Of a DNA stretch of 64,000 nt, positions 1-3,256 are shown one piece after another. Numbering within the stretch: the first letter of the stretch is position 1; the number at the start of each line of letters is the position of its first letter. The stretch lies in assembly GCF_009765755.1 (NCBI RefSeq), contig NZ_LMUV01000002.1, positions 395,693 through 459,692 on the forward strand, given 5' to 3'. This stretch comes from Rhodanobacter sp. L36 (GTDB lineage Bacteria; Pseudomonadota; Gammaproteobacteria; Xanthomonadales; Rhodanobacteraceae). Under the pieces are notes generated by a model, which saw only the letters and a list, made by a program, of their open reading frames with translations, was not told the origin of the DNA and did not search any database. Both the position numbers and the translations under genes were made by a program.

Positions 1-1
1 C

Positions 2-85
2 TTGACGCCATCTGAGTTCGTGTCTCGCGGCGCTTACGGCCAGTATTTTTCTCACCAGTCTCCAAACCTCAAGGCAGGCAGCTAA
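2..85 (+). CDS. C-terminal fragment of a cassette-encoded protein (5' end outside window)
   Basis: One frame is open from the window edge for 27 codons and stops at TAA 83-85, inside the first box of the attC at 80. Cassette 2 uses the same arrangement, with its stop inside the attC, which supports this being the end of a real cassette gene. The visible tail ends FSHQSPNLKAGS and gives no family clue. Most of the gene lies outside the window, so function cannot be judged. Confidence 0.5.
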   Translation: MTPSEFVSRGAYGQYFSHQSPNLKAGS

Positions 86-136
86 CATCTCGTTCAAGGC
101 GGACGGCTTCGCCGCCGCTTAACTCCAGCGTTAGGC
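80..136 (+). other. attC recombination site 1
   Basis: The site starts with AGCTAAC (R'' box) and ends with GTTAGGC (consensus R' box GTTRRRY). Between them lies an imperfect inverted repeat, AAGGCGG ... CCGCCGCTT, that would form the folded single-strand attC. It belongs to the cassette to its left; its R'' box predicts that this cassette begins TTAGCT. Length is 57 bp, identical to the other two sites. Confidence 0.9.
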
Positions 137-148
137 ACAAGATTGAAT

Positions 149-454
149 ATGGCTTCTAGAATGGAAATCGAACAAGTCATCGCCGAGCGAATCATGTTCT
201 TTGTACGGAGCACCGGCGAGCGAGAAGCGGCATCGTTGCGGGTTGGATTGCCCGTTAAGATCGAAGATGAGACTTGGTATTGTCCCTATGAGCTTCGCAC
301 GGACTCTAGAGTTAAGGCGTTCGGAATGCACGGCGTTGACGCACTACAAGCTCTAGATCTCACCATGAAGACATTGCGCGTTGAGGTTGATTACTGGGAG
401 AGACATCAGGACGGAAAGTTCCATTTCCTCGACGAAGAAGGAGCTGGCATCTAA
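149..454 (+). CDS. Cassette-borne small protein, DUF6968-like
   Basis: This 101-residue soluble protein is the only ORF of cassette 1. Its start lies 18 bases after the cassette boundary, which is normal for integron cassettes. ATG 149 is preferred; a TTG at 143 and a second ATG at 161 are in frame. The sequence has a central Trp-Tyr-Cys-Pro-Tyr-Glu stretch followed by a Gly-Val-Asp-Ala-Leu-Gln-Ala-Leu helix. I recognise this layout from DUF6968-type small proteins often found in cassettes; that assignment is from memory and the family function is unknown. There is no signal peptide or membrane segment. No promoter is evident inside the cassette, so expression probably depends on read-through from upstream. 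Confidence 0.8.
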   Translation: MASRMEIEQVIAERIMFFVRSTGEREAASLRVGLPVKIEDETWYCPYELRTDSRVKAFGMHGVDALQALDLTMKTLRVEVDYWERHQDGKFHFLDEEGAGI

Positions 455-473
455 TTCGGCCCATGTGCAGTAT

Positions 474-530
474 GCCTAACAACTCATTCGAGGCGGACAG
501 CTACGCCGCCGCTTAACTCCAGCGTTAGCC
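474..530 (+). other. attC recombination site 2
   Basis: The site begins GCCTAAC, a perfect RYYYAAC R'' box complementary to the TTAGGC that opens cassette 1. It ends GTTAGCC, with the crossover point after G524. The inner arms (GAGGCGG and CCGCCGCTT) pair as in the other sites. About eight of 57 positions differ from site 1 by hand alignment. Confidence 0.92.
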
Positions 531-533
531 CTC

Positions 534-839
534 ATGAGCGCCATAAGCCAAAGAACACGAGACATCATTTTTCGGGCCGGAGTCGCGCTGCTTATCTGTG
601 GTGGAGCGCTTGTTTTATGGGCTTACCAAGACTTCGATAAACTTCCAAACTATTTGCGGATTGCCTCACTTATTCCTGTTATGAGCTCATACGCAATGCT
701 TCAAGTCGACCAATACCATGACTGGGCTTCAGTTCAAGGAATCGATCGTGGTCACGCCATTGGCGCGCTTCTCGCGCCGCCACTACTTTTAGTAGGGTCT
801 CTGATATGGTTTTTTGCAGCGCCTGACGCGCATGGCTAA
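534..839 (+). CDS. Cassette-borne small integral membrane protein
   Basis: This 101-residue protein is the only ORF of cassette 2. Its ATG lies 9 bases into the cassette and its TAA (837-839) lies inside the R'' box of the following attC. Three hydrophobic segments are visible: roughly residues 13-30, 40-56 and 74-94. A charged Tyr-Gln-Asp-Phe-Asp-Lys stretch separates the first two, and a hydrophilic stretch around Asp-Gln-Tyr-His-Asp separates the last two. I do not recognise the family. Small multi-pass proteins of unknown function are common cassette cargo. Its codon use looks less GC-rich than the core genes to the right, consistent with foreign origin. Confidence 0.78.
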   Translation: MSAISQRTRDIIFRAGVALLICGGALVLWAYQDFDKLPNYLRIASLIPVMSSYAMLQVDQYHDWASVQGIDRGHAIGALLAPPLLLVGSLIWFFAAPDAHG

Positions 840-890
840 CAATGCGTTCAAGGCGGACGGCTTCGCCGCCGCTTGACTCAAGCGTCAGGC
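834..890 (+). other. attC recombination site 3, degenerate right end of the array
   Basis: The R'' box GGCTAAC is the exact complement of the TTAGCC opening cassette 2. The R' end reads GTCAGGC instead of GTTAGGC, so the invariant GTT crossover trinucleotide is broken. The inner inverted repeat is intact. No further attC and no convincing ORF follow in 891-1062, so this is taken as the array boundary next to ordinary chromosome. Confidence 0.85.
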
Positions 891-1062
891 GTCCGAATGG
901 GGAGCCTTCGAATGCCTGGTGTCGAAGCAATTTGCCCGAAGACAAAAACAGCGCGTTGGTGGATCGCTTTTCCGTCTCTATTGCTTTCGTCGTATATGTC
1001 TCGTTCCACACCTTGTATTTCGCTACGCGCAATCGCTGCGCGCATTGGCTTGAGCCGGCAGG

Positions 1063-3228
1063 TCATTTATCCGCTGCCGCGCCACCCGCACTCCGATTCG
1101 CCCGACGTACCGCTTCAACAAACCCAGCAAACGGAATGTCGGTGATGCCAACCAGACCGATGTGCGAATTTTCGCCGTCGAGTATGCGCCCCGTGACAGG
1201 TTGGTCGGAGTAGTTGAACCAGTGGGTGCCGACGATGTCGGGATCGTTGACGGCGGCGTTGACGTATCGCGCATAGGCCACGCCGCGCTGCTGTTCGTTT
1301 TCCACTGACACGACGCCATTGCCGAACGGACCGCGATCGTTCGAGCCGAAATGGAATTCGGTGATCATCACCGGTTTGTTCAAGGCGTGCATCGCCGCGG
1401 CATCGTAACCGTGCTGCGGGAGGTCTGCGTAGACGTTGAAGCTCACCACGTCGCAATACTTCGCGCAGGCGGCGATGGCTTCGGGCGTCTTCACTGCGAA
1501 GCGACCGCCGAGAAAAAGATGATGCGTGTCGTGCCGATGGATGGCGTCGGCCGCCACGCGGAAATAGGTTTCCGCATACTGGCTCAACCACGCGCTGTAG
1601 TCGGTGGCGATGGCGGGATGCGCCTCATTGGGGGCGGGTGCGGCGAAGTTGGTGGCGTTCAACGCATCCCATGACTTGAGCGCGATGCCCCACGCGGCCG
1701 CGAGTTTTTCCGGCGTCGCGTATTTGGCGCGCAGCGCGGCGATGAACGCCTGCTTGGCCGGGCTCTTCGCGTCGCCGCGCAGCGTGCCGACGGCAAGTCC
1801 CCAGTGTCCTTGCGGACCCTGGCCTGCCCACGCCAGTTCGTTGTCGACGAAGTAGCCGAGCAGCCATGGATCATCGCGAAATTCCGCGCTCGCTTTCGTC
1901 GCGGCCGCTTCGGCGGCGGGAGCAAAACCGGGATCGAAGGGATCGGGCATGCGACCCCAATAATCGTAGCCGCTGGAGACGCTGCCGAAATGGCCATTGA
2001 TGTTGAGCAGCCGCGTGTACGGCAGGCGATGTGCCTTGGCGAGCGCACTGTCGCTCCAGTTGCCGATGGTGTTGAAGCCCCAGTGTTGCAGACGATCGAG
2101 CGTGCGCTGGCGCCATGTCGCCAACCAGTTCTTGCCATCGACGCGATAGAGGTTGGCGCCGTAGAAATCGAACCAGCGGCCATGGTTGTAGCCCATGTTG
2201 CTGCTGGCGGCCCGGCCCGGTTGACGGCTGTCGCCAGTGCCGTAGAAGGACGTCCATTCGCCGCTGTCGGGCGGGAGATCGTTGAACATGAAGCCGCGAC
2301 CTTCGACGTACGTGCGGCTGTCGTCGGACACGATGGCGTTGACGCCGAGCGAGAAAAATGCGTGGCCCTCGGGGGTGACCAGGCGCCAGTGACCATCGAG
2401 TTTCTGTGTGTGGAACCAGCCGGTTTTCTGCAAGCCCTGGATATCCGTGTGCCCGCCGTACACGTCGAGTTCGCCCGGGTTCGAAGGCGCTGCCGCCAGC
2501 GCCATCTGCTCGCCGGCGTGAGCGGACTTCAACGCGGTATCCGATGCGATGCGCTCTGGCCAGTTGCCGTGGGTGTATTGACCGTATTGATCGACGATGC
2601 CGGTGTACGCCTCGCGCGTGATCGGATCGCCCTGCACTGCATCGATACGACCGAGCAGCAAAGTCTGCGCAGCCTGCGGCGCCGGCATGCCGAGGCGGAT
2701 CGCATGCACCGCGTGCAAATCCAGCGCGCCCTTCACCGTGGTGGCAAGCAACATCGATTGACCATGATCGTCGAACGGCGTCGTCGGTCCGACCTGCATG
2801 CCTTGCGTGCGTGATGATGTTGCGTGCAGTGGAACAACCACGGTTTGCGGCGGACCGGCAGGGACACCCACCGTCGCCTGCAACGCGTGCTGCGCATCGG
2901 CACCGTCTATCTCGATCGTCAACGTCACCGCCCACGGCATCGCGTTCTGCACGCGCAGATGCAGCTCGCCCTGTTTCGTCCAGTCCCATGCTGCGTTCGC
3001 GGGGGCGATAACGATCTGCGGATGCGCGCCGGGCTGGAATGCGTAACGTCCCTGGGCGATGCCGTCGGCAGTTTTCTCCACCACATCGCTGCGCTGCACC
3101 TGATCGAGTTCGACGTGAATCGCCGCGTCGGGTTTCGCGGAGAGATCGGTGACGCCGGGTGTCGTTGCGGCGCTGCAACCACAAAGGGCGATCAGGACAA
3201 GGCCAGACAAGTGCGCGCGATATTTCAT
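1063..3228 (-). CDS. Secreted clan GH-A glycosidase (agarase / GH42-GH50-like), lipoprotein
   Basis: The 721-residue product should hydrolyse beta-glycosidic bonds in a polysaccharide outside the cytoplasm. The ATG at 3228 is chosen over an upstream in-frame ATG because GGGGAG sits 8 bases before it and it gives a clean lipoprotein signal ending LCGC. Residues ~30-230 look like a beta-sandwich domain. The C-terminal two thirds begin with GWFHTQKLDGHWRLVTPEGH, typical of agarase-annotated proteins. FVDNELAW and MITEFHFGS look like the two catalytic Glu loops of a clan GH-A barrel. The APC permease gene lies 28 bases upstream on the same strand, suggesting co-transcription. The substrate is not determined; agarase is a family label only. 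Confidence 0.82.
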   Translation of the reverse strand: MKYRAHLSGLVLIALCGCSAATTPGVTDLSAKPDAAIHVELDQVQRSDVVEKTADGIAQGRYAFQPGAHPQIVIAPANAAWDWTKQGELHLRVQNAMPWAVTLTIEIDGADAQHALQATVGVPAGPPQTVVVPLHATSSRTQGMQVGPTTPFDDHGQSMLLATTVKGALDLHAVHAIRLGMPAPQAAQTLLLGRIDAVQGDPITREAYTGIVDQYGQYTHGNWPERIASDTALKSAHAGEQMALAAAPSNPGELDVYGGHTDIQGLQKTGWFHTQKLDGHWRLVTPEGHAFFSLGVNAIVSDDSRTYVEGRGFMFNDLPPDSGEWTSFYGTGDSRQPGRAASSNMGYNHGRWFDFYGANLYRVDGKNWLATWRQRTLDRLQHWGFNTIGNWSDSALAKAHRLPYTRLLNINGHFGSVSSGYDYWGRMPDPFDPGFAPAAEAAATKASAEFRDDPWLLGYFVDNELAWAGQGPQGHWGLAVGTLRGDAKSPAKQAFIAALRAKYATPEKLAAAWGIALKSWDALNATNFAAPAPNEAHPAIATDYSAWLSQYAETYFRVAADAIHRHDTHHLFLGGRFAVKTPEAIAACAKYCDVVSFNVYADLPQHGYDAAAMHALNKPVMITEFHFGSNDRGPFGNGVVSVENEQQRGVAYARYVNAAVNDPDIVGTHWFNYSDQPVTGRILDGENSHIGLVGITDIPFAGFVEAVRRANRSAGGAAADK

Positions 3229-3256
3229 GCAGAACTCCCCATTCATGCTGCGACTT

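Follow-up and report, generated by a model that had tools for sequence, protein, structure and literature searches.

Clusters of attC sites that stand apart from any integrase gene are known as CALINs, and the available part of one review lists three routes by which they originate (PMC8618304). Where such integrase-less cassette clusters come from, and whether they are dead relics, looks unsettled. The accessible text on the Shewanella prophage M16-3 describes a CALIN that has its own attI (PMC9892861). In Xanthomonas, according to the portion of the source at hand, intI has been lost and CALINs occupy seven distinct loci that are conserved across species (PMC12444791). IntegronFinder is described, in the available sections of its publication, as detecting attI only for class 1 integrons (PMC9024848), so an integrase-less attI platform outside that class, such as the one reported here, would be invisible to it. 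In the open-access collection that we searched, no account came up of attI platforms that lack an integrase and are inherited throughout a genus, and no paper combining integron, Dyella and attC.

The window, as we call the whole stretch of DNA analysed (64,000 nucleotides), corresponds to C8:395693-459692, where C8 is a 1.18-Mb contig of the 3.98-Mb genome of Rhodanobacter sp. L36, assembled in 12 contigs. Xanthomonas belongs to the same order. The first 890 bases of the window are the distal end of an integron cassette array, far beyond what chance would produce (Table 1). We built a covariance model, R1, from 40 attC sites in other arrays of the same genome, with every site of the window array excluded; 40 of 41 candidate sites were used, and candidates were limited to 54-60 bp and to places outside the window array. 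In the 40-site alignment, 91.5% of the cells pair, and three of five measures lay above all 500 shuffles, the remaining two being reached by 89 and 21 of the 500. Searched over the whole 64-kb window up to E 10, R1 returned exactly three sites and none besides. A first-pass annotation, made from the sequence alone, had proposed three 57-bp attC sites at this end, and all three were recovered by the covariance model built without them (E 3e-19 to 2e-16). The two whole cassettes that it had delimited were confirmed, as was the exact box pairing within each of them. Its estimate of about 86-88% identity between sites is right for two pairs (49/57 and 50/57; 86 and 88%) and too high for the third (46/57; 81%).

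Table 1. Features of the cassette array and its flanks (positions 1 to 3246 are those of the window)
Feature	Position	Strand	Remarks
Left flank gene, Y-family-polymerase-like	C8:392178-393683		Brackets the array together with the GH42 gene
attI core, 17 bp	C8:393938-393954		Left of the window; pattern match
Cassette, 3′ part	1..130	+	Frame ends ...TPSEFVSRGAYGQYFSHQSPNLKAGS*, then attC; 5′ part across the scaffold gap left of the window
attC site 1	80..136	+	R1 80.2 bits, E 3.4e-19
Whole cassette, 394 bp	131..524	+	Start TTAGGC pairs 7/7 with its own R″ GCCTAAC
Cassette gene, 103 aa, DUF6968	143..454	+	PF22302 54.1 bits, cut-off 27
attC site 2	474..530	+	R1 69.8 bits, E 2.4e-16
Whole cassette, 360 bp, last of array	525..884	+	Start TTAGCC pairs 7/7 with R″ GGCTAAC
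Cassette gene, 101 aa	534..839	+	Pfam: no match up to E 1
attC site 3, right end of array	834..890	+	R1 69.9 bits, E 2.2e-16; R′ box GTCAGGC
Right flank gene, glycoside hydrolase 42-like	1063..3246	-	PF02449 27.0 bits, cut-off 21

Across the genome, the box pairs 7/7 with its own cassette start in 27 of 42 cassettes, one of which spans a scaffold gap, and with the physically adjacent box in 5 of 40. Rfam, searched with window positions 1-1200, yielded nothing above chance level (two matches, E 6.4 and 8.2), and DNA folding of the single window attC sites was not significant (z -1.3, -0.2 and -1.4). Taken by themselves, these 890 bases are ordinary; the notable part is the platform system behind them.

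To the left, the array extends to a total of six attC sites (C8:394341-396582), three of them outside the window (at C8:394341, 394889 and 395407). A 10-N gap (C8:395683-395692) directly before the window start joins the window to the attI side. It falls within a cassette, between sequences that both occur elsewhere. The last 72 bp of the left piece recur unchanged at the start of contig C8, and on the right, window positions 2-136 match, at 97.8% identity, the 3′ end of a cassette that closes at about C8:394945. The 98 bp that open contig C9, in turn, are found unaltered in the first cassette after the window-array attI. What looks like one cassette spanning the gap is a chimera of the scaffold, and the cassette count is a lower bound. 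We considered a biological mosaic cassette at about C8:395461-395828 and rejected it because the 10-N gap lies inside. Scaffold gaps and contig ends of this assembly fall in cassettes, some of them repeated (the gap just described, the starts of C8 and C9, C4:661575-661689 and C6:15576-15585), and an array may connect C9 and C8 as adjacent contigs.

The window is assigned to this attI because of the scaffold and because of synteny in relatives. The left flank gene, which by resemblance we take to encode a Y-family polymerase, and the GH42 gene lie close together in 17 relatives, with the matched ends 15-24 bp apart in three. Only two of the 17 show an attI-like site between the two genes, one of these being decayed. 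In G021 the attI core stands there with one cassette-like gene; in G009 the attI is the decayed one, and the gene beside it is different. R1 found no site at E <= 0.1 between the polymerase and GH42 genes of the 17 relatives, and a search of this interval for decayed attC in 10 of them, with filters off, gave none that was convincing (best E 0.67).

The left end of the array is assembled without Ns from the polymerase gene into the fourth cassette. The first cassette starts at about C8:393951 and is directly preceded by the attI sequence in the order ...CATATGCCCCGATGTGGGGTCTAATAAGC^GTTAGCC. Our sequence model of leader plus attI, R2, scored this site at 67.3 bits, the site itself being among the 63 sequences of the model. 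On the opposite strand, an intI stub of about 13 codons reads MSYARESGEINRM and starts 149 nt before the core. In complete integrons of relatives, intI starts with MSYGPGSAGINRM, MSYDPGNARINRM and similar sequences at 147-150 nt from the core (24 of 25 intI-bearing sites). Since leader, attI and an intI-like stub at the right distance are all present, the locus appears to have kept its platform, together with the first intI codons, and to have lost the rest of intI. The first-pass annotation had expected an integrase left of the window. Extension in that direction yielded the three further attC sites and the attI-type site, and at the place of the integrase only the stub.

As in a complete integron, attI is proximal to the array; intI beside it is reduced to the stub. 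With six attC sites and no neighbouring intI, the array falls under the definition of a CALIN (at least two attC sites), and we classify it, on its sequence, as a CALIN at an integrase-less attI platform. The same type of attI was also found at the C9 integron beside intI, and at two arrays that lack intI, one at C8:41 kb and one where contig C9 starts; the attI of the C4 and C6 integrons is of a different type. All three integrase-less arrays of this genome with an assembled left end begin at an attI-type site with a leader.

Genome-wide, R1 found 53 attC sites at E <= 0.1; C4 and C6 bear arrays, as do three places on C8 and two on C9. Three genes encode IntI above the TIGR02249 cut-off (C9 51018-51962, C4 659287-660225 and C6 19967-20902), and no such gene was found on the 1.18 Mb of C8. 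Their frames lack internal stops and contain HTLRH, LLGH and IYTHV, with an ambiguous start codon in the C6 gene. The C4 and C6 proteins are 69% identical to each other and 48-50% identical to that of C9, which defines two lineages. The nearest named relatives found for the C4 IntI were from Dyella sp. S184 (88%) and Dyella silvatica (67%), and the C6 intI region shares 89% DNA identity with Dyella silvatica. By these matches the genome would belong, probably, in Dyella or near it. This one genome thus holds three IntI genes, two lineages and two attI types, yet one attC type; a relative, G016, has four IntI matches.

R1 also matched in 22 of 24 congeneric relatives, with best E values down to 1e-19. 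Outside the genus it matched in 11 of 16 genomes, where the best scores were weaker (best E 3.0e-12) and some genomes had many sites. The array is chromosomal, on a 1.18-Mb contig, and its attC is host-specific in that R1 is stronger in congeners; both are features of a sedentary integron. The earlier proposal of a sedentary chromosomal integron therefore holds for the chromosomal-type tail, for the additional attC sites to the left and for a single attC type throughout the genome and in those 22 congeners, and it does not hold for the array itself, which has no integrase.

Cassettes are common to several arrays of the genome (C4/C8, 96% identity over 446 bp; C4/C6, 97-99%). Consecutive cassettes, C4:661323-661805 and C8:41547-42005, are common to an intI-bearing array and an orphan-platform array, the 446-bp match belonging to the first. 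At four attC sites (C4:661750-661830, C4:663574-663650, C6:8574-8640 and C6:9659-9707) the R′ box is replaced or closely trailed by a repeat like GAGTGTCCGCTTTCGACCC, which might be a small element with attC as its insertion target. The C6 integron array also contains a 558-aa frame (C6:11356-13032) for a putative large serine recombinase.

We then took the platform to the level of the genus. The pattern GGTCTAMTWAGCGTTAG, which favours well-kept cores, was searched with at most one mismatch in 45 congeneric genomes, and the 17-bp attI core occurred 72 times in 30 of them, against a single occurrence for the reversed-pattern control. A related attI pattern matched in 25 of 60 genomes, all of this genus, and in 0 of 24 genomes of other genera. 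Among the 72 cores, 25 have an intI match over 200 aa, 4 have short remnants and 43, in 22 genomes, are orphans, meaning that no intI was found in the 0.8-3.5 kb examined upstream of the core. Where at least 1 kb of downstream sequence was available, attC was present there in 32 of 34 orphans and in 21 of 21 intI-bearing sites. R2 gave 120 matches in 40 of the 45 genomes; it was built from 63 of 68 leaders of pattern-found sites, so those match by construction. An intI-like start (M-S/R-Y) is kept at 144-149 nt in 21 of 42 orphan sites examined, a count made without a shuffled control.

Not all orphans are artefacts of contig edges, since the single-contig genomes G025, G027 and G030 also carry them. 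In at least two genomes, G002 and G025, orphans are present and the only IntI at E <= 1e-60 is truncated; not every orphan need therefore be served today. For these two, and for G062, which has two orphans and stood outside the IntI search, supply in trans is hypothetical. In G032, 71 kb separate two integrase-less platforms (L170 and L171, at about 3.010 and 3.081 Mb of its contig C1) that share 96.4% identity across 253 bp, from -236 to +16. Their flanks are unrelated, with no similarity in the 3 kb beyond, and the near-identity of the pair in such different surroundings indicates that the platform seems to have been copied.

An audit of left ends covered the 16 arrays of at least two R1 sites in G001, G003 and G022, which have one IntI each at E <= 1e-60; five single attC sites were left out. 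Pattern or model placed an attI in 9 of the 16 arrays, three of these beside intI. A third leader family (family C, ...GGATTAGACTGCAATTTGAAATCTACTTAGCGTTAG) was found at the intI-bearing integron of G001 and, in G001 and G022 together, at seven arrays without integrase, three of them known from the pattern search, and the audit also showed one decayed site of the family-A type. The family-C calls were made with the places of the arrays known, and the mutual similarity of the leaders weighs more than the core-only matches (E 0.0075 to 6.3). In total, an attI-like site opens 14 of the 16 arrays; among those that lack intI, it opens 11 of 13. At the remaining two, both in G003, no such left end was found.

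Orphans share their upstream genes across species in eight clusters of 2-6 members (one member being a short remnant), and two further upstream-gene clusters mix copies with and without intI. One locus, with upstream protein identity of 50-79%, carries intI in three genomes (L019, L164 and L192) and only an orphan platform in three others (L158, L168 and L152). In the three clusters compared, the second with all but one of its members, the flank-leader junctions align between species except at the remnant L191. Downstream, no cluster has cassette sequence of at least 120 bp in common, some members offering little sequence on that side; the sole longer match is, by its place, the GH42 gene. For 11 cross-species pairs the comparison covered 500 nt or more. 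Flank identity in these is 84-97%, and in all 11 no downstream match exceeds 73 bp, the size of an attC. These pairs share members and hence are not independent; they come from 14 pairs compared, of which two had less than 20 nt downstream and one lay within a single genome.

G008 and G001 give the clearest case. Their flanks agree at 1139 of 1173 positions and their leader plus attI at 214 of 217, and the 926 nt compared downstream contain only an attC-sized match, the cassettes being unrelated. In both, the intI stub breaks off in the same way, at a stop after MSYTGKIGM, and both have IntI elsewhere in the genome. Near-identical leaders together with the same stub stop imply that intI was most likely lost before the two split. 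Orthologous platforms carry different cassettes. We infer that the replacement was done in trans by IntI, and cassette turnover could also date from before independent losses of intI.

Outside the searched core, a CTTG box is nearly invariant in the alignment of 63 leaders, and it may be part of a working Pc promoter. A sigma-70 consensus scan of the leader (L017:8600-9100) gave no promoter match. An inverted repeat in the leader is conserved, with covariation not above that of shuffles; this set comprised 18 family-A leaders without intI, one near-identical leader copy having been removed before the covariation test, and seven family-A sites lacked the anchor (five orphans, one remnant and one with intI).

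Our model suggests that a complete integron would once have lain between the polymerase and GH42 genes, that intI would have been deleted save for about its first 13 codons, and that the leader of about 200 bp and the attI would have been retained. Cassettes at orphan platforms would then be inserted and removed in trans by IntI from other loci, which here would be the three IntI genes, of two lineages, on C9, C4 and C6. The resident integrases could supply cassettes because every array of the genome has the same type of attC. We consider it likely, judging from the sequence comparisons, that intI was deleted, that the attI platform survived and that cassettes still enter it in trans. Alternatively, the array might be a leftover of intI loss that nothing has entered since, with cassette differences going back to capture before separate losses of intI. 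The intI stubs and remnants of several lengths are consistent with such decay, as are the 2 of 34 orphans without attC, the G021 copy without recognisable attC and the genomes in which orphans coexist with truncated IntI only. However, the leaders of G008 and G001 differ at 3 of 217 positions and end in the same stub stop, and their cassettes are nonetheless unrelated; moreover, the attC sites of the window array score 53-80 bits with R1, inside the range of the intI-borne C9 array (26-85 bits). We therefore regard a frozen array as unlikely.

Homologous recombination between similar arrays, rather than IntI, might also move cassettes into orphan platforms, and the cassettes common to the C4, C8 and C6 arrays would fit this, as would the 98-bp identity between the cassette start at the end of C9 and the first cassette after the attI of the window array. 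Nevertheless, the compared pairs keep no homologous tract beyond attC length downstream of attI, and recombination would often carry flanks or several cassettes along, so that this route seems more doubtful still. Off-target founding, in which a cassette circle inserts at a random attG and more cassettes follow, is named among the CALIN routes in the available text of PMC8618304, and attG work is cited in the accessible part of PMC12444791. The two audited integrase-less arrays (of 13) without an attI-like site could have arisen in this way, whereas the three such arrays of the window genome with an assembled left end all start at an attI-type site with a leader, and for the present array we hold this origin to be highly improbable. 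The same low probability attaches to an ordinary complete sedentary integron whose integrase was missed by the assembly, as the first-pass annotation would have it: a scaffold gap is indeed present in the array, but it lies inside cassettes, and the expected place of intI is assembled and contains the stub only.

Returning to deletion of intI with continued entry in trans, we tentatively extend it, at somewhat less than even confidence, to a distributed integron, in which a few integrase genes would serve a larger set of long-inherited, integrase-free attI platforms filled in trans, and in which the platform (about 200-250 bp) may be copied as a satellite module. Most of the integrase-less arrays examined start at an attI-like site, and an intI-like start survives at roughly half of the orphan sites. 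These features make it directly testable whether cassettes are captured in trans at several sites; if they are, the capacity of a genome to carry cassettes would not be limited to the neighbourhood of intI.

Like other CALINs, the window array has at least two attC sites and no intI nearby. It differs in the attI, leader and intI stub at its left end and in belonging to platforms that recur at the same loci across species with other cassettes, features that do not appear in the available parts of the CALIN literature examined (PMC12444791, PMC9024848 and PMC8618304). The Shewanella M16-3 element, as far as its accessible description goes, is one phage case (PMC9892861), whereas here there are many platforms in one genus, with intI stubs, at loci that several species have in common and with cassettes that differ. 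For the Xanthomonas CALINs, the accessible text makes no mention of an attI, unlike the platforms described here, and in pv. citri it reports that all CALINs carry the same two cassettes (PMC12444791), while the cassettes at our platforms differ between species. With sedentary chromosomal integrons, finally, the present system shares its chromosomal location and its single attC type; it departs from them in an array without an intI of its own, within a genome where several platforms occur together with IntI genes of two lineages, three in all.
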